Of a stretch of 64,000 nt of DNA, positions 1,054 to 17,131 are shown piece by piece. Positions within the stretch are counted from its first letter, which is position 1, and every line of letters starts with the position of its first letter. The notes under the pieces were generated by a model. That model did not search any database, was not told the origin of the DNA, and saw only the letters and a list, made by a program, of their open reading frames with translations. The stretch covers positions 124,001 through 188,000 of the forward strand of contig JAIQFC010000010.1 in the NCBI GenBank assembly GCA_020073465.1, given 5' to 3'. Both the position numbers and the translations under genes were made by a program. Source of the DNA: Terriglobia bacterium. GTDB lineage: Bacteria; Acidobacteriota; Terriglobia; Terriglobales; Acidobacteriaceae.

Positions 1054-1434
1054 TCCGCGCCCCCAAGCCAGGTAAGAAGCAATACACGCCCAGTCCCAAA
1101 TCTAGCGAAGAACCCTGGCATTGCCTGTGATCAGAATCACAACTTGAGGCTCGTTGCGAAGGCAGATCACAGGCTGATTTGTCCAGAAATCCGTCCTGAG
1201 GTCAGAAATCTGAACGCTCGGACGTAGTGCAGGGGCGACTTTGTTGGAGCCGGCTATTGGACCATCGACGACTGTCGAATGTGCACCTCTGGTGACTAGT
1301 GCGTGGCAGGGATGGGTCTTAGACTGCAAGCGAATCAGTTGCCGCGAGGGACGCGAGTCCTTCGTTTGCCGAGGGGCGTGTTGCCAGGGAAGAGCGACTT
1401 AGAAGCTCGAGATCGACGAGCGCAAGGCAAGGCC
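1054..1434. other. Divergent intergenic region
   Basis: This 381-base stretch separates the minus-strand kinase from the plus-strand cytochrome operon. It contains the CRP-like palindrome at 1126-1141. The cytochrome frame stays open back to an ATG at 1303, but residues encoded by 1303-1434 are Arg/Gly-rich and not signal-peptide-like, so I treat them as non-coding. No RNA gene seen. Confidence 0.5.
1126..1141. promoter_or_regulatory. CRP/FNR-family palindrome TGTGA-N6-TCACA
   Basis: A perfect TGTGA-TCAGAA-TCACA palindrome matches the classical CRP consensus. It sits in the divergent promoter region between the histidine kinase (start 1053) and the multihaem cytochrome operon (start about 1435). 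A further inverted copy of its left arm (GATCACAGG, 1165-1173) lies about 40 bases away. The same motif recurs twice at 59237 and 59372. A CRP/FNR-type regulator is an inference; none is encoded here. Confidence 0.6.
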
Positions 1435-3411
1435 GTGGCTGGGTGGAGTTACACAGCCACGCGTTCGGCTCGGGGCTCAGTGCAGGCGGTTTGGTTGGTC
1501 TTTTCCCTGTGGTTGTTTCTGGCAGCGGCGGGCGCGCAGATCTCTCCCGGACCGTTGTCGAGGCCGCATCAATCACTCAATGGATCGACCAACTGCGCCA
1601 GTTGCCACAAGTTCGGCGGCGGGCAGGCGGCGCTGAAGTGCCTGGACTGCCATACGGAAATTGCCACGCGGCTCAGTGCCCGCAAGGGACTGCATGCGAC
1701 TTACAACATCCCTCCCGGTTCCAGCCAGGAGTGCGCGCGCTGCCACTCGGAACATAATGGCGAGGACTTCCCGCTGATTAAGTGGGACATCAAAACCTTC
1801 GACCACAAGCCGACTGGATATCCGCTTCTGGGCAAACACGCGGGCCTGACCTGCAATCGCTGTCACACGCCGGCGCGCATCAGTCCGCAAGAACGCTCCA
1901 CCATCAAGATCAAAGACCTGAACCGGACTTATCTGGGATTGGGGACGACTTGCGCGACCTGCCACCAGGATCCCCACAACGGACGACTGGGGCAGACCTG
2001 CCAGCAGTGCCACAACTTCGAAGACTGGAAGGCCATCAGCGTCGGCCAGTTCGATCACTCGAAGACGCGCTATCCGTTGACCGGACTGCACGCTCAGGTG
2101 GAGTGCGCGAAGTGCCATACGCCGGGCCCTGACAACAAGCCGCGATACACGGGAATTCCGTTCAACCAGTGCTCGGACTGCCACAGGGATCCGCATCGTG
2201 GAAGCTTCCCGCAGGGATGCCAATCCTGCCACAACACCTCGGGCTGGAAGAAGGTCTCACTCACCGCCGTGAATGAGCGCTTCGACCACTCGAAAACCAA
2301 GTTTCCCCTGCAAGGGAAGCACGTCAGCGTCGATTGCGCCAAGTGCCACGCCAATGGCGACTTCAAGAAGCCCCTGGTCTTCGCGAAGTGCATGGATTGT
2401 CACAAGCCCGATCCGCACAATGGGCAGTTTGCCAGGCGGCCGGATCACGGCGAGTGCGCTTCCTGCCACACAGTGAACGGGTGGAAGCCGTCGACGTTCA
2501 CTGTCAAGGAACATGCGACCAGTGCGTATCCGCTGCAGGGCGGGCATGCTCGGGTGGAGTGCATGCAGTGTCACATCCCGAAAGGGAAGGACACGCTATT
2601 CAAGATCAAGTTTGCGAGCTGCACGGACTGTCACAGCGACCGTCATGCGGGGCAGTTTGTTGCCGCGCCCTACTTCAACGCTTGTGACCTCTGCCACAAC
2701 CTTGAAGGGTACAAGCCGTCCACGTTTACCCTGGTGCGTCACAAGGAGACGCACTTCGTCCTGACCGGAGGCCACGTTGCCGTGCCGTGCGCCGACTGCC
2801 ACAAGGAGTCGGCGGAGTTTCAGCCGAAACCGGCGGTGGCCTATCACTGGAGAGATTTGACTTGTACCAGTTGCCATGCGGATCCCCACAAGGGGCAGTT
2901 CAAAGAACGCATGATGCAGGTGCGGGCGGACAAGACTGTTGCAGGGTGCGAGGCGTGCCACTCTACCAAGTCGTGGAAGGACTTGACCCGATTCGATCAC
3001 TCGAAGACTACGTTCCCGCTGCTGGGAGCGCACCGGGCAACGGCTTGCATGGACTGCCACAAGCCACCGAACCTCGAAACCAAGCTAATCAATGTTGATT
3101 TCAAGGCGGCGCCGACTCAGTGTGAAGATTGCCATGAAGACATCCACGGCAAGCAATTCTCCAAGGGAGAGGTTACGCGCTGCGTCGACTGCCACAACAC
3201 CATGAAGTGGAGACCCTCGCTCTTCGATCATGAGCAAAAGACGGCATTCCCGCTGCGGGGGGCGCACCAGAACGTGCGCTGCGCCGACTGCCACAAGCTG
3301 ACGAAGCTCGTCAACGGGAAGACGGTGCTCTTCTACAAGCCCACACCGAAAGAGTGCGCAGCTTGCCATGGGCCCACGAATCCAGTGCCCAGTCAAAAGC
3401 CGCGAGCGTAG
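1435..3411 (+). CDS. Secreted multihaem c-type cytochrome, 23 CxxCH motifs
   Basis: A signal peptide (hydrophobic WLVFSLWLFLAAAGA core preceded by two Arg) exports the protein. The mature part holds 23 CxxCH haem-attachment motifs, so it should be a periplasmic or outer-surface electron carrier with up to 23 c haems. The protein is built of about seven degenerate units of the form FDHSKTxFPLxGxH...CxxCH, followed by DPHxGxF and CxxCHxxxxW, in the style of cytochrome c3/doubled-CxxCH families. The start is uncertain: the frame is open from ATG 1303, but GTG 1435 gives a normal signal peptide with a positive n-region, while GTG 1480 would leave it without charge. It heads a co-directional gene set with a second, larger cytochrome, a beta-barrel protein, a b-type cytochrome and a flavoprotein, which suggests trans-envelope electron transfer. 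I do not assign a named family member. Confidence 0.9.
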   Translation: MAGWSYTATRSARGSVQAVWLVFSLWLFLAAAGAQISPGPLSRPHQSLNGSTNCASCHKFGGGQAALKCLDCHTEIATRLSARKGLHATYNIPPGSSQECARCHSEHNGEDFPLIKWDIKTFDHKPTGYPLLGKHAGLTCNRCHTPARISPQERSTIKIKDLNRTYLGLGTTCATCHQDPHNGRLGQTCQQCHNFEDWKAISVGQFDHSKTRYPLTGLHAQVECAKCHTPGPDNKPRYTGIPFNQCSDCHRDPHRGSFPQGCQSCHNTSGWKKVSLTAVNERFDHSKTKFPLQGKHVSVDCAKCHANGDFKKPLVFAKCMDCHKPDPHNGQFARRPDHGECASCHTVNGWKPSTFTVKEHATSAYPLQGGHARVECMQCHIPKGKDTLFKIKFASCTDCHSDRHAGQFVAAPYFNACDLCHNLEGYKPSTFTLVRHKETHFVLTGGHVAVPCADCHKESAEFQPKPAVAYHWRDLTCTSCHADPHKGQFKERMMQVRADKTVAGCEACHSTKSWKDLTRFDHSKTTFPLLGAHRATACMDCHKPPNLETKLINVDFKAAPTQCEDCHEDIHGKQFSKGEVTRCVDCHNTMKWRPSLFDHEQKTAFPLRGAHQNVRCADCHKLTKLVNGKTVLFYKPTPKECAACHGPTNPVPSQKPRA

Positions 3412-3818: not shown

Positions 3819-6221
3819 ATGTTGGCGTCTGGGGGCGTACTCAATCTAGCTGCAGTACTGCTACTGACGTTGTCCGGATCTCCGGCACGGCCGCAGGCCT
3901 CCGGAGGTACACACAGTCCGCACGGCAATCTGAACATTCCCTGCCAGAACTGCCACACGGCAAGTGCGTGGAGGCCGATCCGCGCCGTTCCAGAGTTCGA
4001 TCACAATCAGACCCGATATCCCTTGCGCGGTATGCATCAGTCTGTCACCTGCGTGCAGTGCCACGTAAAGCCCGTGTTCACGAACGTCGGGCAGCGCTGC
4101 CAGGATTGCCACGCCGACATTCACAAGCGGCAACTGGGTGCGAACTGCGAGCAGTGCCACACAGTACGGGGATGGCAGGTCTCGATTCAGCAGGTGCAGC
4201 AGCACAATAACCGTTTTCCGCTGACCGGAGCCCACGCGGCAGTCGACTGCGATTCCTGCCACAAGGGGGCGGCCAACAGCAAGTTCCAGACCATGTCGAC
4301 GGACTGCTATTCGTGCCACTCGGCAGACTTCAAGAGTGCGAGCAATCCGAATCACATCTCGGGCAAGTTCTCGATCACTTGCGAGCAGTGTCACGGGACG
4401 GACAGCTGGCTGAACGCGAAGTTCGATCATTCCGCGACAGGCTTTCCCTTGACCGGAGGGCACGCGGTGCCGCCGGCACAGTGCACCGACTGTCACGTCA
4501 ACAATAACTACAACCTTACAAGCACGGCTTGCGTGTCGTGCCATTTGAAAGACTTTCAGGGCACGACGAACCCGAATCACGTCTCGGCAGCCTTCCCCCA
4601 AACTTGCGAGCAGTGCCATACCACAGCGGCGTGGTCTCCGGCCACGTTCGACCACAGCACGGTCAACTTTCCGCTGACTGGATCGCATTCCGTGCCGCCA
4701 CGGCAGTGCACGGAATGCCACGTCAACAACAACTACAACATCACGACGACAACGTGCGTTTCGTGCCACTTGAAAGACTTCCAGGGCGCGACCAACCCTA
4801 ACCACGTGCAGGGCGGGTTCGCGCAGACTTGCGAACTCTGCCACAACACGACCGCGTGGCAGCCTGCGACCTTCGATCACTCCAAGTCCGCATTTCCATT
4901 GACCGGATCGCACACGGTGCCGCCGCGGCAGTGTGCGGATTGCCACATCAACAACAACTACAACATCACCAGCACGACGTGCGTTTCGTGCCACCAGAAC
5001 GATTACAGCAATGCGGTCAGCCCGGTGCCACACGCAGGTTTCTCTACGGCGTGCCAAACCTGTCATGACACGGTGGCGTGGATCGACGCGAAATTCGACC
5101 ATTCCACTGTGGGCTTTACGTTAACCGGATCGCACATGGTGCCGCCGCGGCAGTGTGCGGATTGCCACATCAACAACAACTACAGCCTGAACAGCACGGC
5201 GTGCGTTTCGTGCCACCTGAAGGATTTTCAGGGTACGACCAACCCGAATCACGTTACATCGAATTTCCCGCAGACTTGCGAGCAGTGCCATAACACGACG
5301 TCGTGGCTCAATGCTGTCTTCGATCACAGCAGCACGGGATTCCCGCTGACCGGATCGCACACGGTGCCGCCACGGCAGTGTACGGATTGCCACGTCAACA
5401 ACAACTACAACCTCACCAGCACGGCGTGCGTTTCCTGCCACCAGACCGACTACAACAACGCAGTCAGCCCGGTCGCCCATGCCGCAGCTGGCTTTCCGAC
5501 CACTTGCGAGACCTGCCACGACACGGTGGCGTGGACTGACGGCAAGTTCGATCACAACACGACGGGCTTCTCCTTGACCGGGCAGCACACGGTGCCGCCG
5601 CGGCAGTGCATCGATTGCCACGTTGGGAACAACTACAGCCTGAACAGCAATGCCTGCGTCTCGTGCCACCTGAAGGATTTCAACGGCACGACGAACCCGA
5701 ATCACGTGACCTCGGGATTCCCGCAGCAATGCGAGCTGTGCCACGACACCATCACGTGGACGGATTCAACGTTCAACCATAACAACACGACATTCCCGCT
5801 GACCGGCTCGCATACCGTTCCGCCACGGCAGTGCGCGGACTGCCACGTCAACGGCAACTACACGACGCTCCCGACGGCGTGCATTGGCTGCCACCAGACG
5901 GACTACAACAACACCACCAATCCCGGACATAAGGCCCAGCCGCAGTTCTTCCCGACGACTTGTCAGAATTGCCACAGCACCACGAACTGGCTGAACGCGA
6001 CCTTCAATCACACGCAGTACACGCAGTTCCCGACCAGTCACGGGAACGCGAATAACGTGTGCTCCACGTGTCACACGAATTCGAATGACTACTCGATCTT
6101 CCAGTGCACGAACTGCCACTCGAAGTCCCAGGCGGACTCGAATCACCAGGGCGTGAAGGGGTATGTGTACAACAGCATTAACTGCTACCAATGCCATCCC
6201 AGTGGGAACGGTGGTGGTTAA
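3819..6221 (+). CDS. Secreted multihaem c-type cytochrome, 31 CxxCH motifs in tandem tri-haem modules
   Basis: The 800-residue protein starts with a hydrophobic signal sequence and carries 31 CxxCH motifs. The first ~210 residues resemble the upstream cytochrome. From about residue 217 the protein becomes a strikingly regular array: seven modules of 74-76 residues, each containing FPLTGxHxVPPRQCxxCHVNNNYN, a CVSCH, and a CxxCHxxxxW followed by FDHS, so three haems per module. Its C-terminus has three more haem motifs after a degraded unit (NVCSTCH, CTNCH, CYQCH). Such extended modular chains are known from haem wires that carry electrons across or outside the outer membrane. The very high module similarity suggests recent internal duplication and possibly variable length between strains. 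It lies directly upstream of the beta-barrel gene. Confidence 0.9.
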   Translation: MLASGGVLNLAAVLLLTLSGSPARPQASGGTHSPHGNLNIPCQNCHTASAWRPIRAVPEFDHNQTRYPLRGMHQSVTCVQCHVKPVFTNVGQRCQDCHADIHKRQLGANCEQCHTVRGWQVSIQQVQQHNNRFPLTGAHAAVDCDSCHKGAANSKFQTMSTDCYSCHSADFKSASNPNHISGKFSITCEQCHGTDSWLNAKFDHSATGFPLTGGHAVPPAQCTDCHVNNNYNLTSTACVSCHLKDFQGTTNPNHVSAAFPQTCEQCHTTAAWSPATFDHSTVNFPLTGSHSVPPRQCTECHVNNNYNITTTTCVSCHLKDFQGATNPNHVQGGFAQTCELCHNTTAWQPATFDHSKSAFPLTGSHTVPPRQCADCHINNNYNITSTTCVSCHQNDYSNAVSPVPHAGFSTACQTCHDTVAWIDAKFDHSTVGFTLTGSHMVPPRQCADCHINNNYSLNSTACVSCHLKDFQGTTNPNHVTSNFPQTCEQCHNTTSWLNAVFDHSSTGFPLTGSHTVPPRQCTDCHVNNNYNLTSTACVSCHQTDYNNAVSPVAHAAAGFPTTCETCHDTVAWTDGKFDHNTTGFSLTGQHTVPPRQCIDCHVGNNYSLNSNACVSCHLKDFNGTTNPNHVTSGFPQQCELCHDTITWTDSTFNHNNTTFPLTGSHTVPPRQCADCHVNGNYTTLPTACIGCHQTDYNNTTNPGHKAQPQFFPTTCQNCHSTTNWLNATFNHTQYTQFPTSHGNANNVCSTCHTNSNDYSIFQCTNCHSKSQADSNHQGVKGYVYNSINCYQCHPSGNGGG
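4467..5990 (+). repeat. Seven in-frame tandem repeats of about 225 bases inside the 31-haem cytochrome
   Basis: The GTGCCGCC core of the VPPRQC motif (GTTCCGCC in the last copy) occurs at 4467, 4692, 4917, 5139, 5364, 5592 and 5817, giving spacings of 225, 225, 222, 225, 228 and 225 bases, all multiples of three. Each unit encodes a 74-76 residue tri-haem module. The period creates a long spurious antisense ORF. Confidence 0.85.
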
Positions 6222-6311: not shown

Positions 6312-8939
6312 ATGATGGCGGTTCAGAAACATGTTGCGACGTGGATGATCCTGTTGTCGTGTGCCGCGGCTCAGAACACGGCCGGGACAGCCACGGTTCA
6401 GGACGTCGCAGTGGCTCGAGTAGGAACAGATTTGCGGATCGAAGTGACGCTCAGTTCGGCGGTGAAGCCTTCGGTTGAGACTGCGATCCATCCTGACCGG
6501 ATTCTGCTCGATCTTCCAGACACCATCTGCACGGATAAGACCAGGAGAGTCGACGTTCACTTCAACGGCGTGCGCCGGGTGCGCACCGGGCAGCATTCGA
6601 CTAGCCCTCTTGTCACGCGCGTGGTCCTTGATCTGGACCAGTCCAATCCCTATAGCGTCAGAGTGGAGGGGAACCGCATCATTCTGGTCGTTAGTCCTGC
6701 GACGGACGCGCGGAGAGTTCGTTCCGGTGCGCCAGCGGCGGCGACGTCCGGAAGTCTGATCGGAATCTTCCGCCGCAGGCAGGAAACGCTGGCTCCGATT
6801 GCGGAGGACAATTCGCCTGCTCCTGCGGAGCCCGTTCCTCCGCCCGGCACGGCTGCAGCGCCTGCGGGTGTCGCGACAGGTTCGTCTGCAACAACGCTTC
6901 CTTCGGGGACAGAGACAGCCCCTACCCCGCCTGGGCCAGCGGCGACCGGTTCAACGGAAGGCTCTACCGCGCAGGGATCGTTCACCCAGAATCAGATTGC
7001 GGCGAACACCGGTGGGAGGAACTCCGCGCCGGTTGCGGCTGCGACTCTCCCATCGGCCGTTGCGTCTCCGGCCGCGACCCCGAAGCCGGCCGCGGAGGCA
7101 CCCGCGCCCGCGACTCCGGTTGCCAGTCCGGCGCCCGCTACTGCCGAAGCAACGGCAGACGTTTCTCCAACTGCTGCCCCGAAGCCGGCTGACGCCGACG
7201 AGGGTGGAGGCGCAGTGGTGTCGCCCGCGCCCTCGGCTCCGCCTGCCACTCCAGCACGCACAGCAGTTGAGGCGACCACCATGATTGCCCGAATGGATGA
7301 CCCGAGCCTGCACACCGTCTTCAAGGTAAAATATGTCGCGGAAGGCGTGGCGTACCTGGATGGAGGCAGGGCCCAGGGGCTGACCGAGGGCATGAAACTG
7401 GTGGTCCAGGACAGCAACCTGCCCGCAAAACAGGGCGACAGCGTCGATGCCGCTGATCCGAAAGTGGTAGCCGAGTTGGAGGTGAGTGCAGTTGCGGAGA
7501 CCTCCGCTGTGACGGACATCCACACGCCCAAGCGTCCGGTGAAGGTGGGAGATCTGGCATACCTGTCGAGCAGTGACGCCGCTGCACTGGTACAGCAGCG
7601 GGCATTGAGCGCAACCCGTCAGTACCCGGCGGTGATCTCGTTCACAGAAGGCGACACGCTGGATGAGGAAGCCCGCCAGGAAGTGCCCCGGCCGCCCTTG
7701 CCTTCGGTGAACCGCGCCCGTGGCCGTATCGGGCTCGACTACATGGACACCATCAGTCACGGCTCGACCAGCATGACGAGCTCCGATGTGGGCGTGGTGT
7801 TTCGTGGCGACATCACGCGCATTGGCGGTACCTACTGGAACTTGAGCGGTTACTGGCGCGGCCGGCTGACCAAGAGTTCTGCAGCCAGTCAACAGACACT
7901 GCAGAACCTCATCAACCGGACGTATCACCTGAGCATGACCTACGACAATCCGAACTCAAGCCTGGTCGCTGGTTTTGGCCGCCTGTATCTTCCGTGGGCG
8001 CCGAGTCTCGACACCATCGACGGAGGGTATTTCGGAAAAAGACTCAGCAAGGGGACCACGCTCGGAATGTTTGGCGGCTCTACGCCTGATCCTTCATCGT
8101 GGGACTACAGTCCTGATCGCGTCATTGGCGGCGCCTTTGTTAATTTTGATGGCGGTGCGTATGACGGCTTTCACTACAGCAGTACCTTCGGCGCCGGAGC
8201 CAGCCTGTTGAAGTGGCAGATGGACCGCCCTTTCGTCTTCTTTGAAGATTCGTTCTCATACGGACGGCGCTTTGCTGTGTACGAGTCCGCGCAACTCGAC
8301 GACCCCAAGGGAAATACCGTCGCCCTCTCACCGGGGCCGGGATTGGGGCGCAGCTTCTTTACTCTGCGCGTCCAGCCGCATCCCCGGGTGGAGATCGATT
8401 TCAACCACAACTACTTCCGCGATATTCCGACGTTTGACCCTACGCTGATCAGCGTGGCTCCCGGCCTCCTGGACAAGTTCCTGTTCCAGGGATTCAGCGC
8501 GGGAGGCCGGGTCGAGGTGATGAAGCAAGTTTTCGTCTCGACGAACCTGGGTCGAAGCAGCCGAACGGGAGATGCGACGTCGTCGCTGAACGAGATGTTC
8601 GGTCTCACATACGGACGGCTTCCCTGGGTGCACCTGCGGGCGGACGCGCACTATGCGCGGTTCAACAGTTCCTTCGGGAGCGGATCGTACGAGGCGTTCT
8701 CGCTCTCGAAACAGTTCTCCGACAACCTGCGGCTGGAAATGCTGGCGGGACAACAGAACTTCACCTCTGCGGTTACGACGAACAGCCGGGGGCGGTTTCT
8801 GACGGGAACGGTGGAGACCACACTCGGCCCCCATTACTACCTGCAAGGCAGCTTCACTACGAACCGCGGCCAGCTGAGTTATGACCAGTTCATGTTCTCG
8901 CTCGGCTACCGCTTCGATTCGAAGAAGCATAAAGAATGA
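6312..8939 (+). CDS. Outer-membrane beta-barrel protein with N-terminal AMIN domain
   Basis: After a signal peptide, residues about 22-130 form an AMIN-type domain (VARVGTDLRIEVTLSS ... PDRILLDLPDT ... VRRVRTGQH ... TRVVLDLD), a fold usually found in secretins and cell-wall amidases, where it binds envelope structures. A Pro/Ala-rich linker of nearly 180 residues follows (about 143-320). Next comes a small domain around 322-425 with a GVAYLDGGRAQGLTEGMKL stretch, as in SH3-like domains of envelope proteins. The last ~400 residues alternate in polarity with many aromatic strands and end in FSLGYRFDSKKHKE, which suggests a transmembrane beta-barrel. Its place directly behind two giant cytochromes suggests the role that MtrB/PioB-type porins play in porin-cytochrome conduits, though I see no sequence relation to MtrB. 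It overlaps the next gene by ATGA. Confidence 0.8.
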   Translation: MMAVQKHVATWMILLSCAAAQNTAGTATVQDVAVARVGTDLRIEVTLSSAVKPSVETAIHPDRILLDLPDTICTDKTRRVDVHFNGVRRVRTGQHSTSPLVTRVVLDLDQSNPYSVRVEGNRIILVVSPATDARRVRSGAPAAATSGSLIGIFRRRQETLAPIAEDNSPAPAEPVPPPGTAAAPAGVATGSSATTLPSGTETAPTPPGPAATGSTEGSTAQGSFTQNQIAANTGGRNSAPVAAATLPSAVASPAATPKPAAEAPAPATPVASPAPATAEATADVSPTAAPKPADADEGGGAVVSPAPSAPPATPARTAVEATTMIARMDDPSLHTVFKVKYVAEGVAYLDGGRAQGLTEGMKLVVQDSNLPAKQGDSVDAADPKVVAELEVSAVAETSAVTDIHTPKRPVKVGDLAYLSSSDAAALVQQRALSATRQYPAVISFTEGDTLDEEARQEVPRPPLPSVNRARGRIGLDYMDTISHGSTSMTSSDVGVVFRGDITRIGGTYWNLSGYWRGRLTKSSAASQQTLQNLINRTYHLSMTYDNPNSSLVAGFGRLYLPWAPSLDTIDGGYFGKRLSKGTTLGMFGGSTPDPSSWDYSPDRVIGGAFVNFDGGAYDGFHYSSTFGAGASLLKWQMDRPFVFFEDSFSYGRRFAVYESAQLDDPKGNTVALSPGPGLGRSFFTLRVQPHPRVEIDFNHNYFRDIPTFDPTLISVAPGLLDKFLFQGFSAGGRVEVMKQVFVSTNLGRSSRTGDATSSLNEMFGLTYGRLPWVHLRADAHYARFNSSFGSGSYEAFSLSKQFSDNLRLEMLAGQQNFTSAVTTNSRGRFLTGTVETTLGPHYYLQGSFTTNRGQLSYDQFMFSLGYRFDSKKHKE

Positions 8940-13089: not shown

Positions 13090-14385
13090 TCAACGATTCG
13101 CGCGAACCGGGGAAACTTCGGTGGCGGTGCGTCCGAACCGGAATCGCAGAAGCCAGGAACTGGGAGTGGTCCGACCATCGGATTGGGGCGGTTTGAATTC
13201 CCATCGTCGCGCCGCCTGTTGTGCCAGATTGGCGAAATACGGGCTGGGCCCTGGAGACGTGACTGTGGCCGCCTTGACTTTGCCCGACGCGTCCACGTCA
13301 ACCCGCACAATGACCCTGATCTTGCCTTGGATCGTATTCCTCGCGCTGCGGGGAACCTCAGGCAAAACCTGCCGGGCGACTTCCCCCTGGGACGAGGTGG
13401 CCTTGCTCAACTTTTCAGGTGGCTTGGCACTGGGGGTGGGCGCTGATTTAGGAGGCGCCTCAGTTCGCTCGATTTTAGGAGCCGTGGTGGCCGGCCGGCT
13501 CCGGCGGGTGAGCATTGGGACAAGCAGCGCGACCAGTATGATCGCCGCTATCACCGGCACGAGGATGTGCCAATTTGGAGGTTTCCGCCCGGCGGGCAAG
13601 GGCGGTTCCACTGTTGCAGGAATGGAGCCTGGTTGCAGCCGCCCCCTGATGTCTGAGATTGAAGGCCGTTGTTTGGGATCTCGGCGCAAGCAGGCGCGGG
13701 CGATGTTGCGAAAGGGTTCGGGAACCGTTTCCGGTACCACGGGCTCGCGTGTTCCCAGGGGGACGGGTGGATGCTGGGTAAGAGCTTCGACCATCGTAAC
13801 CGCAAGCGACCACAGATCTGCGGCGGGCGTGAGCGCTTCGGTGGCGAGTTCGGGCGCGTCATAGACAGTCCGGGCCTGGACCTTGTCGCTCAGCTGTCCG
13901 GCCGGATACAGGCGGTCAACTGAAAGCTTTAACTGATCGTCGGCAGCCTGGATGTTCGAGGGCTTGATGGCGCCGTGGACAAATCCTTTTCCATGTAGAT
14001 ACAAAAGCGCGTCCAGAGCCGGCGAGAGAAGGTCCCCCAGTTCGGTCGTCGAGAGCGGGCGCTGCGGAAGAATCTGAGACAGATCCTCGTCGGCATATTC
14101 CATGACCACATAAAGAAGCTGCACGCCCTCGATTTCACAACGGCCCATGTCGAAGAGCCGGAGCAAATGGGGGTGAGAGAGTCTCAAGGCCGGCCGCCAC
14201 CGAGCGAGTTGATCGACATTGAGAGTGTTTGCGGGAATCAGTTTGATGGCAGCTTTCTGCGAAGACCCACCGCGTTCTGTCAGGAAGACCGTGCTGTGAT
14301 CGGAAGCTCCCAGCCACTGGCGCAGCGGGAATTTCCCGTCGACCACCTGACCTTCCCACGTTTTTCGGAAAGCAGGACTATGCAT
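13090..14385 (-). CDS. Membrane pseudokinase with C-terminal TonB domain
   Basis: Residues about 18-255 have a Ser/Thr protein kinase fold: the ATP Lys (AAIKLI, K48), MEYADEDL hinge, DAPE segment (residues 176-179) and LWSLAVTMVEAL helix are recognisable. The catalytic HRD is replaced by HGA (137-139, VHGAIKPSN) and the DFG metal site by VDR (about 156-158), so both key aspartates are missing and it should be inactive as a kinase. One transmembrane helix follows (about 273-292), then a Pro/Ala-rich periplasmic linker, then a TonB C-terminal domain (about 340-425, IQGKIRVIVRVDVDASGKV ... ARRWEFKPP). The layout suggests a sensor or scaffold that binds a ligand or partner in the cytoplasm and a receptor or envelope structure outside. 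It converges with the methyltransferase gene. Confidence 0.8.
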   Translation of the reverse strand: MHSPAFRKTWEGQVVDGKFPLRQWLGASDHSTVFLTERGGSSQKAAIKLIPANTLNVDQLARWRPALRLSHPHLLRLFDMGRCEIEGVQLLYVVMEYADEDLSQILPQRPLSTTELGDLLSPALDALLYLHGKGFVHGAIKPSNIQAADDQLKLSVDRLYPAGQLSDKVQARTVYDAPELATEALTPAADLWSLAVTMVEALTQHPPVPLGTREPVVPETVPEPFRNIARACLRRDPKQRPSISDIRGRLQPGSIPATVEPPLPAGRKPPNWHILVPVIAAIILVALLVPMLTRRSRPATTAPKIERTEAPPKSAPTPSAKPPEKLSKATSSQGEVARQVLPEVPRSARNTIQGKIRVIVRVDVDASGKVKAATVTSPGPSPYFANLAQQAARRWEFKPPQSDGRTTPSSWLLRFRFGRTATEVSPVRANR

Positions 14386-14483: not shown

Positions 14484-15926
14484 CTAGCTGGCTCGCAGCG
14501 AGAAATAGAAGACAGAGCCCCGTCCGACCTGGCTGCGGACCCCGATCGTGCCCCCGTGCAATTCGATGATCGCCTTCGCGATGGCCAAGCCCATTCCGGT
14601 GCCCTGGATGGTCGTTCTCTGGTTCCTGCCCCGATAAAACTTCTCAAAGACCATGTCCTGTTCCATGTCGTCGATTCCCGGCCCGTGGTCAGCGACGCTA
14701 GTGACCACCTCGCCGCCGGGGCCGAGTTCCGCGACCACGTGAATGGGAGTGCCGGACGGAGAGTATTTGCCGGCATTCTCCAGCAAATGAACGAGGACCT
14801 CCGAAATCCGTTCAACGTCCATCTTGATACGGGGCAAATTGTCGGGCGCCTTGACCTCAACCGGGTGGTGTTGAAGCGCCTGCCGTGTGGCCTGCATTGC
14901 GGAATCGACGGCTTCGCGAATCGAGTGCGGCTCGAAATGGAATTCGAGCTGGTGAGAGTCCAGTTGCGCAACTTCAGCCGCTTCTCCGATGAGGCGATTC
15001 AGGCGGTCGCCTTCCTCGTTAATGACGGTGAGCAATTCGTGGGCTTGGGCTTTCTCAAGGTGAGCGTCTGAGAGCAGCGTTTCCGCAGAGGCTTTGATCG
15101 CCGTGAGAGGCGTGCGAAACTCGTGTGTCACCGAATCGAGCAGAACCGAACGAAGCCGGTCGCTTTCCCGCGCCGCCTCCGCGCGGGTTAACTTTTCGAC
15201 GGTGTGGGCACGCTCGATGGCGATTGCCGCCAGGCTGCCAATGGCTTCCAGCGTTTCGCGCGAAAGACCGCATCCGGCAAGCCCAACCGCGCCAACCGAA
15301 CGTACTCCCATTCTTAGCGGCATGAAACAGATGCGGTGCTCGCGATCCAGCACGGGTTCTCCACGGCTGCTGATTGCTTTTAGCTGTTCGGTGGGGAATA
15401 GGGACTGGCTTGCAGTATCGTAAAAGTACGTTTGCTTGCCGTCGACGAACATCGCTGCGCTGCTCACGTCGAAGGACTCAACAACGTATTTGGGGATGGA
15501 GTTCAGGAGTCCGTAAACATTGTCGCTTACCAGCAATTGCTGGCTGAAGGCGTAGAGACGCTCGACCTCGTTTCGGCGCTCGTCTGACTCTCGCGCTTCC
15601 CGGCGAGCACGGTCAGAAAGGTCGCTGGCAACAACCGCCGTGAACAGGAATGCGAACAGCGCCAACCAATTCTGCGGATCGTCAATCGTAAACTGATGCA
15701 GAGGAGGCAGAAAGAAGTAGTTGTATCCCAGAGTAGCCAGCACCGCGGTAAAGATCGCGTAACGGAGTCCCCAGACTGCCGAGATTGTGAGGATGACAAG
15801 CAGGAAAGAGAATCCCACGGTCGTAGGATTGACATGCAGCCAGCGAGAGTAGACAACGATCACGAGCGACACAATCGCGGCAGAGGCCGCGAAGCGTAAT
15901 ATCTGATACAGTGTCGCTCGTTTCAT
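14484..15926 (-). CDS. KdpD C-terminal half: DUF4118/GAF/histidine kinase as a separate protein
   Basis: This 480-residue sensor kinase corresponds to the C-terminal half of KdpD. The N-terminal ~100 residues hold the four short KdpD-type membrane helices (including the GYNYFFLPP stretch typical of DUF4118), followed by a GAF-like domain (about 125-245), an H-box SVTHEFRTPLTAIKAS (His268), and a full ATPase domain with N (HLLENAGKYS), G1 (DHGPGID), F and G2 (GTGMGLAIAKAI) boxes. The start is placed at the Met of MKRAT because upstream codons are not conserved-looking. It lacks the UspA and Walker parts of KdpD, which are encoded by the divergent gene starting 84 bases away. It probably phosphorylates the KdpE homologue at 17139. 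Confidence 0.85.
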   Translation of the reverse strand: MKRATLYQILRFAASAAIVSLVIVVYSRWLHVNPTTVGFSFLLVILTISAVWGLRYAIFTAVLATLGYNYFFLPPLHQFTIDDPQNWLALFAFLFTAVVASDLSDRARREARESDERRNEVERLYAFSQQLLVSDNVYGLLNSIPKYVVESFDVSSAAMFVDGKQTYFYDTASQSLFPTEQLKAISSRGEPVLDREHRICFMPLRMGVRSVGAVGLAGCGLSRETLEAIGSLAAIAIERAHTVEKLTRAEAARESDRLRSVLLDSVTHEFRTPLTAIKASAETLLSDAHLEKAQAHELLTVINEEGDRLNRLIGEAAEVAQLDSHQLEFHFEPHSIREAVDSAMQATRQALQHHPVEVKAPDNLPRIKMDVERISEVLVHLLENAGKYSPSGTPIHVVAELGPGGEVVTSVADHGPGIDDMEQDMVFEKFYRGRNQRTTIQGTGMGLAIAKAIIELHGGTIGVRSQVGRGSVFYFSLRAS

Positions 15927-16009
15927 AGTCCGTGCGTTGCGGAGCAGAATCTGGGTCAGGGCGATTCTAGCTGATTCGCAAAGCACCCCGTTAACAGGAA
16001 ATCCTTTGC

Positions 16010-17131
16010 ATGCCCAAAACCCCGGAACAGTGGCTGGAAGAAGCGGCCCCACAGAAGAAACAAGGCATATTCAAGCTCTTTCTCGGATACGCGCCCGGGG
16101 TAGGGAAGACCTACAACATGCTGAGTGAGGGTATTCGCCGCAACAGCCGCGGTGAAGATGTGGCGATCGGCGTGATTGAGACTCACGGACGAAAGGGAGT
16201 TGCCGATCTGGCTTCCAAGCTGGAAGCCGTACCAAAGCGCAGCATCGAATATAAGGGCACGTTGTTTGAAGAGATGGATGTGGATGCCATTCTTGCGCGC
16301 AAGCCGCAAGTAGTCCTCGTCGATGAACTCGCACACACCAATGTTGAAGGGAGCAGGCACAACAAGCGGTATGAAGACGTGATGGATCTGCTGGACGCTC
16401 AGATCGACGTGCTGTCGACGATGAACGTGCAGCATATCGAGAGCCTCATGCCGACGGTGCAGAGCATCACAGGCGTGCGTGTACGAGAGACGGTTCCTGA
16501 CTGGGTTATGCAGCGCGTCACTGAGATCGTTCTCGCTGACTTGACTCCGGAGGCGCTGCAGACTCGCATGCGCCGGGGCGATATCTACCCTGTGGAGCGG
16601 GCTGATCGGGCGCTGGGAAACTTTTTTCGTCCCGGTAATCTGATCGCCCTGCGCGAGTTGGCGCTGCAGCAGGTGACCCGGGCCGTCGACCGGAGCCTCG
16701 AATCGTATCTGGAAAAGGAGGGAGTGGGGCGCAGCGTTGGCGTCCGAGAGCGGATCGGGGTCGGCGTTAGTTCGAGCCCCGCGGCTCAGTACCTCATAGC
16801 GCGGGCAGGTCGGATGTCACAGAGGATCGACGCAGAACTATTCGTCATCTACGTCGATATTGGAGTCGATGATAATCCCCAAGATCAGCGATCTCTGGCC
16901 CAGAATATTCAGTTCGCCCAGAACCTGGGGGCGCAGATCGTGCGTACGAAAGGCAAGAGCGTCGCCGAAGAAGTAGCTAAGGTCGTGCGGGAGAAGCACA
17001 TCACACAGGTGGTCTTCGGCAGATCGGCGCAGACGGGCTGGCGCAGATATCTCTACCTCTCCGTGATCCACAAATTTCTGCGGGATGCCCCTCCCGTCGA
17101 CGTGCACATCGTGACCCAGGAAGTGAAGTGA
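16010..17131 (+). CDS. KdpD N-terminal half: Walker ATP-binding and UspA domains
   Basis: The 373-residue protein matches only the cytoplasmic N-terminal part of KdpD. It has the Walker A GYAPGVGKT (26-34), Walker B VVLVDELAHTN and the conserved NVQHIESL stretch, then a UspA-like domain (about 240-370). It ends where canonical KdpD would enter its membrane helices; no transmembrane segment or kinase domain is present. In E. coli these regions regulate the kinase in response to ATP, K+ and second messengers, so here the regulatory half would act in trans on the kinase half encoded divergently at 14484-15926. It is eight bases upstream of kdpE, suggesting co-expression with the regulator. Confidence 0.88.
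   Translation: MPKTPEQWLEEAAPQKKQGIFKLFLGYAPGVGKTYNMLSEGIRRNSRGEDVAIGVIETHGRKGVADLASKLEAVPKRSIEYKGTLFEEMDVDAILARKPQVVLVDELAHTNVEGSRHNKRYEDVMDLLDAQIDVLSTMNVQHIESLMPTVQSITGVRVRETVPDWVMQRVTEIVLADLTPEALQTRMRRGDIYPVERADRALGNFFRPGNLIALRELALQQVTRAVDRSLESYLEKEGVGRSVGVRERIGVGVSSSPAAQYLIARAGRMSQRIDAELFVIYVDIGVDDNPQDQRSLAQNIQFAQNLGAQIVRTKGKSVAEEVAKVVREKHITQVVFGRSAQTGWRRYLYLSVIHKFLRDAPPVDVHIVTQEVK

Follow-up and report, generated by a model that had tools for sequence, protein, structure and literature searches.

The protein P0001, encoded in the window (the whole stretch of 64,000 nucleotides of Terriglobia DNA, from a soil acidobacterium, that was analysed), is likely the porin of a PCC3-type porin-cytochrome conduit, which we consider the best explanation of the evidence as a whole. 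Its operon encodes, in this order, cytochrome 1, cytochrome 2, the porin, a LolA/LolB-like protein, a di-haem cytochrome b and an NAD(P)H oxidoreductase (Table 1). The best reading of this operon is an electron conduit in which a periplasmic wire of fixed length would be joined to an outer wire of variable length, and from direction and topology as we infer them electrons would probably be exported from NAD(P)H through the outer-membrane pore. Acidobacteriota are abundant in soils, and their ways of electron disposal under anoxic conditions are poorly known.

Table 1. Features of the operon and of porin P0001, with positions in the window.
Feature	Position	Strand	Remarks or basis
Cytochrome 1 (MHC1), c7/c3-type, 23 CXXCH	1303..3411	+	proposed periplasmic wire
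Cytochrome 2 (MHC2), 31 CXXCH, tandem ~75-residue tri-haem units	3819..6221	+	proposed outer wire
Porin P0001, 875 aa	6312..8939	+	signal-like N-terminus, AMIN, Pro/Ala linker, FlgT_C-like domain, predicted barrel
AMIN domain, residues 34-126, clade-specific	6411..6689	+	Pfam and tree
Pro/Ala/Ser/Thr-rich linker, residues 131-322	6702..7277	+	composition
FlgT_C-like domain, residues 334-422, in 81/81 sequences	7311..7577	+	iterated profile
Predicted 22-strand outer-membrane barrel, residues 468-869	7713..8918	+	AlphaFold2 model and fold searches
Periplasmic protein with predicted LolA/LolB fold, 273 aa	8936..9757	+	predicted model; overlaps porin stop
Inner-membrane cytochrome b-like protein (PCC3 'IMP'), 318 residues	9754..10710	+	two WX3HX13H, SGXXG
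Membrane-anchored Fe-S/FAD oxidoreductase, 461 residues	10721..12106	+	domain and motif matches

Conservation and distribution of the operon

A barrel search of 297 genomes of the phylum gave a match in 22 of them, and a scan of genome contigs yielded 115 confirmed relatives, of which 80 were kept; among the matches listed these were acidobacterial throughout. One locus, L093, carries the operon of a cultured species, Occallatibacter savannae. The barrel gene is directly preceded by a multihaem ORF at every one of the 55 loci whose upstream sequence is long enough. The adjacency of P0001 and the cytochromes is therefore beyond chance, and the link that the first-pass annotation had drawn between an outer-membrane barrel and giant cytochromes is supported. 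Downstream on the same strand, where there was room, we found the LolA-like gene at 71/78 loci, cytochrome b at 69/76 and the oxidoreductase at 53/65. The oxidoreductase is missing or displaced at 12 of the 65 loci with room, which counts against our main reading, since coupling to NAD(P)H may not be universal. At some loci (L071, L046, L048-L050) genes for cytochrome b and/or the oxidoreductase precede cytochrome 1, so that the order of genes varies between families. Seven loci (L069, L074, L097, L101, L102, L121, L128) pair the barrel with a single cytochrome and have no inner-membrane genes, which likewise counts against the main reading. The complete cytochromes of such stand-alone pairs carry 7-46 CXXCH motifs, and some of the assemblies also have the full operon. 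Plasmid pEMTOL02 of Emticicia oligotrophica (Bacteroidota) encodes the oxidoreductase, a cytochrome b in which both motifs occur, a 23-motif and a 40-motif cytochrome and, at the porin's place, a 538-residue protein. We read the latter as a homologous porin from its sequence and position; the barrel search of plasmids gave no match, this protein included.

The genes for the 273- and 318-residue proteins downstream of the porin overlap at their ends and are followed by the oxidoreductase gene. The 273-residue protein had no match in Pfam or NCBIfam. Its AlphaFold2 model (pLDDT 88) aligned by VIA with a lipoprotein-sorting domain (3bk5, Z 11.4, rmsd 3.9, 184 aligned) and with LolA3 (Z 10.8), and a LolA/LolB fold is thereby predicted. 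In the membrane protein WX3HX13H occurs twice, at 110 and at 290, with SGVVG at 150 between them; two WX3HX13H together with SGXXG were present in all 69 full-length homologues. The membrane protein shows a weak match to DUF4405 in Pfam, and crude hydropathy gave six hydrophobic stretches, compared with five transmembrane helices in the PCC3 protein, with the motifs on the third, fourth and last. The oxidoreductase has a hydrophobic helix at its N-terminus, a pair of Fe-S motifs and an FAD/NAD(P)H domain of TrxR/YpdA-like type. Its second Fe-S motif reads C-x2-H-x2-C-x3-C, with His where Cys is usual; in the homologue from Emticicia the two places are taken by Ser and His.

Two further observations concern the window beyond the operon. 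A gene on the minus strand (13090-14385) encodes a Ser/Thr protein kinase domain fused to a TonB C-terminal domain. KdpD is apparently split into two opposite-strand genes (14484-17131; the DUF4118-kinase part on the minus strand, sensor plus Usp on the plus strand), adjoining a response regulator and kdpABC-like genes that reach 23858.

Haem counts of the two cytochromes

The start codon of cytochrome 1 is uncertain (GTG at 1303, followed by a signal-peptide-like stretch). With loci cut by contig ends excluded, cytochrome 1 could be scored in 46 and cytochrome 2 in 57 of the 80 loci. Cytochrome 1 has 23 CXXCH motifs in 44 of its 46 complete copies, the exceptions being L052 with 20 (possibly a broken ORF) and L118 with 21, and 23 motifs were also found in more distant acidobacteria (six loci, L045-L050). 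Counts were made at 22 further loci as well, several of which are apparently the same contigs as in the main set (e.g. L029 and L068) and hence not independent; one of them, L041, has 19 motifs in a split ORF. Each of the 23 haem sites falls into one alignment column occupied in 54 to 56 of 56 rows, in an alignment that used ORFs with exactly 23 motifs and so shows the alignment of sites and not the count, and in which two rows were taken for copies of cytochrome 2. The sites still align in sequences that are only 37-40% identical to that of the window, Emticicia (38%) included.

Cytochrome 2 of the window matches the triheme domain TIGR04257 (45.7 bits, cut-off 40). Motif numbers follow 3n+1 in 50 of the 57 complete counts, with other numbers in 7, and range from 18 to 79 with a median of 31 among the 51 complete copies whose locus also has cytochrome b. 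L052 and L091 have near-identical barrels, and the difference between their cytochromes 2 amounts to two blocks, of one and of five whole units (74 and 375 residues), with 94% identity elsewhere. Repeat units within the two proteins share no more than 81% and 67% DNA identity, which makes assembly collapse unlikely in this pair. Cytochrome 2 thus changes in length by whole tri-haem repeats. A copy at L123 (3684-9728) has 79 CXXCH motifs in 2015 residues, with 25 tri-haem units. The contrast of a fixed and a variable cytochrome, taken with the analogy to the system of He et al., suggests a periplasmic place for cytochrome 1 and an outer one for cytochrome 2.

Proposed electron flow

In the path that we propose, NAD(P)H would reduce the FAD and Fe-S centres of the oxidoreductase, and electrons would pass from there to the two b haems and so cross the inner membrane in the manner of NADPH oxidases. 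We draw this analogy because He et al. note that the HX13H pattern of the inner-membrane protein is common to the ferric reductase/NOX domain (PMC5566968), and because an NAD(P)H oxidoreductase is encoded next to it. Cytochrome 1 would serve as a wire of fixed length across the periplasm, the barrel would hold the wire junction in the outer membrane, and cytochrome 2 would form the outer wire, its reach tuned by gain or loss of repeats, with minerals, humics or other cells as possible final acceptors. In one clade only, AMIN on its long linker would tether the porin to peptidoglycan.

An inward conduit, in which Fe(II), Mn(II) or another cell would supply electrons that cytochrome b delivers to the quinone pool, appears unlikely to us. 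It would agree with the loci that have no oxidoreductase nearby and with the PCC3 of He et al., which comes from genomes of Fe(II) oxidisers and was modelled as electron uptake to quinone (PMC5566968). However, the NAD(P)H oxidoreductase of the operon suits outward flow, and a RuBisCO search of the operon's own genome gave no match, which we counted on the same side. A 2026 survey of cave MAGs likewise reads most PCC-bearing MAGs, few of them with carbon fixation, as likely electron exporters (PMC13264449).

Within the preferred outward reading, a more far-reaching version might be considered tentatively, and we would rather doubt than assert it: an unbroken haem path that bypasses quinone, from cytoplasmic NAD(P)H through a split NADPH-oxidase-like pair (oxidoreductase and di-haem cytochrome b) and the 23-haem wire to an outer wire of 18-79 haems. 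The length of cytochrome 1 would here be set by the width of the periplasm, the outer reach would evolve by whole tri-haem repeats, and the porin tethers, namely AMIN, a second FlgT_C-like domain or long Pro/Ala linkers, would be interchangeable.

Structure of the porin

The first-pass annotation had described P0001 as an AMIN domain separated by a Pro/Ala linker of about 180 residues from a barrel of about 400 residues beside giant cytochromes. This is confirmed in its parts: AMIN (PF11741) matched at E 6.3e-12, better than the Pfam cut-off, the linker has 192 residues of which 65% are Pro, Ala, Ser or Thr, the C-terminal part (residues 461-875) is the barrel, and the upstream ORFs hold 23 and 31 CXXCH motifs. 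Absent from that description was the FlgT_C-like domain between linker and barrel. It is sub-threshold in Pfam for P0001 (E 0.006-0.013), and at E 0.01 Pfam FlgT_C matches 16 of 81 porin sequences (best 6.5e-6), but it was recovered in all 81 by an iterated profile. FlgT_C-like domain and a barrel of ~410 residues are the conserved unit of the porin in 81/81 sequences.

An AlphaFold2 model of the barrel, based on an alignment of 81 cores (the window and the 80 kept loci), had a mean pLDDT of 75, with barrel blocks mostly at 80-90, and a pTM of 0.63. It shows 22 long strands, for which the standard geometry formula gives a C-alpha diameter of ~40 Å, compared with 47 Å for 26 strands. A barrel of ~40 Å could in principle admit a slim haem wire. 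VIA-align placed 22-strand TonB-dependent receptors at the top (Z 16.8, rmsd 5.2, 355 aligned) with Occ porins close behind, and Foldseek had usher pores in its first rows. We take these matches as those of a generic large barrel and not as signs of kinship. MtrB was not among the best 50 matches listed of either search. A sequence search of solved structures with P0001 returned nothing for the barrel, while the best matches of AMIN were to PilQ (E 0.0043). A secretin such as PilQ was rejected, as Pfam shows AMIN and a weak FlgT_C only and no secretin domain. A TonB-dependent receptor was rejected as well; 22 strands would fit, but Pfam gives no plug or receptor family.

It seems quite improbable that the barrel is an usher-like secretion or assembly pore that exports cytochrome 2, and not a sheath for electron transfer. 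Besides the usher pores at the head of the Foldseek results, the neighbour with the predicted LolA/LolB fold, which could be a chaperone, and the seven loci with cytochrome and barrel alone would agree with such a role; yet the structural scores to ushers are of the same generic-barrel kind as those to TonB-dependent receptors and Occ porins, and Pfam shows no usher domain.

Occurrence of the AMIN domain

AMIN domains bind peptidoglycan. The domain was found in 26 of 81 porin sequences, while 55 lack it in the ORF as read, some of these being truncated at a contig end or by a frameshift. A tree was built from the barrel columns, with 75 rows scored for AMIN, 49 of them without it, and six left unscored. 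On this tree its distribution requires two changes, compared with 21.8 in shuffles, and is most simply explained by one gain and one loss (L068). It is confined to one clade, where 26 of 27 scored members have it, and relatives without it keep the operon and the barrel size. Other homologues (e.g. L076, L078, L083, L087) have instead a second FlgT_C-like domain ahead of a long stretch, so that a long tether appears to be optional and built in more than one way. AMIN is therefore a later, lineage-specific addition to the porin and not its defining feature.

The first-pass annotation had proposed a distinct porin class marked by AMIN and linker. A part of this stands, since the barrel has no name in NCBIfam, PHROGs or Pfam, but the operon layout is that of the published PCC3, and AMIN and linker fail as a mark of the class. 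That AMIN is an essential working part is very improbable, for all that the domain is intact in the window and kept throughout most of its clade, given the many porins that do without it at unchanged operon and barrel size and the Emticicia protein, in which none was seen when the sequence was read by eye. Among open-licence papers we found none that joins an AMIN domain with multiheme cytochromes and the outer membrane.

The 22-strand barrel family and its LolA-like partner, both nameless in the libraries searched, could be useful as markers. A haem count that is near-constant across two phyla in one cytochrome, against change by whole repeats in the other, offers a testable rule for telling periplasmic from outer cytochromes.

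Comparison with known systems

MtrCAB consists of a porin sheath with periplasmic and surface cytochromes; the cytochromes are decahaem proteins and the barrel has 26 strands. The present system would work like it, but differs with 23 and 31 motifs and 22 strands. Membership in MtrCAB/MtoAB was rejected on these motif numbers and because models of the decahaem family scored far below cut-off. Polymers of the GSU1996 type are built of tandem tri-haem c7 units, as is cytochrome 2, and differ in having twelve haems and no porin operon.

The kind of system is already known, since He et al., work on Gallionellaceae and papers on acidobacterial PCCs describe such conduits. A PCC of MtrB and ExtB/E type was reported in a 2020 paper as the first likely one in Acidobacteriota (PMC7399161). 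The 2026 cave survey describes Acidobacteriota PCCs with porins of ~20 strands and, in its group 1, a large decahaem cytochrome at the centre with a ferredoxin-NADP reductase nearby in 7/11 (PMC13264449). Phylum, strand number and nearby reductase resemble our operon; the decahaem-centred group 1 does not, and neither a fixed 23-haem partner nor AMIN is described in the parts of the survey considered here.

The closest likeness is to PCC3, described in Proteobacteria as a porin, two very large multihaem cytochromes and an inner-membrane protein with two WX3HX13H, SGXXG and five transmembrane helices (He et al. 2017, PMC5566968). The outer cytochrome is rich in repeats, the periplasmic one, with a median of 21 haems, was suggested to be able to span the periplasm, and the porin has up to 42 predicted strands. 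The authors of a 2025 paper call PCC3 function untested (PMC12442390). The window operon has this gene set and layout and the inner-membrane motifs, the porins being likened by operon and not by sequence. It differs in its occurrence in Acidobacteriota and on one Bacteroidota plasmid, in the fixed 23 haems of cytochrome 1, in the additional NAD(P)H oxidoreductase and LolA-like genes, and in a porin with a FlgT_C-like domain and 22 predicted strands. In the portions of the papers compared we found no description of a haem number fixed at 23, a LolA-like partner, a porin with a FlgT_C-like domain or a tether made of AMIN, nor did any open-licence paper found join PCC3 with an acidobacterial cytochrome. 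In the PCC3 of Gallionellaceae the AlphaFold models of the cytochromes are long and mostly linear, spanning of the periplasm was proposed, and haem counts are 21, 24 and 27 for the periplasmic and 10-35 for the outer cytochrome (PMC10734462), compared with 23 and 18-79 here; in both systems the periplasmic cytochrome, as assigned, varies less than the outer one.
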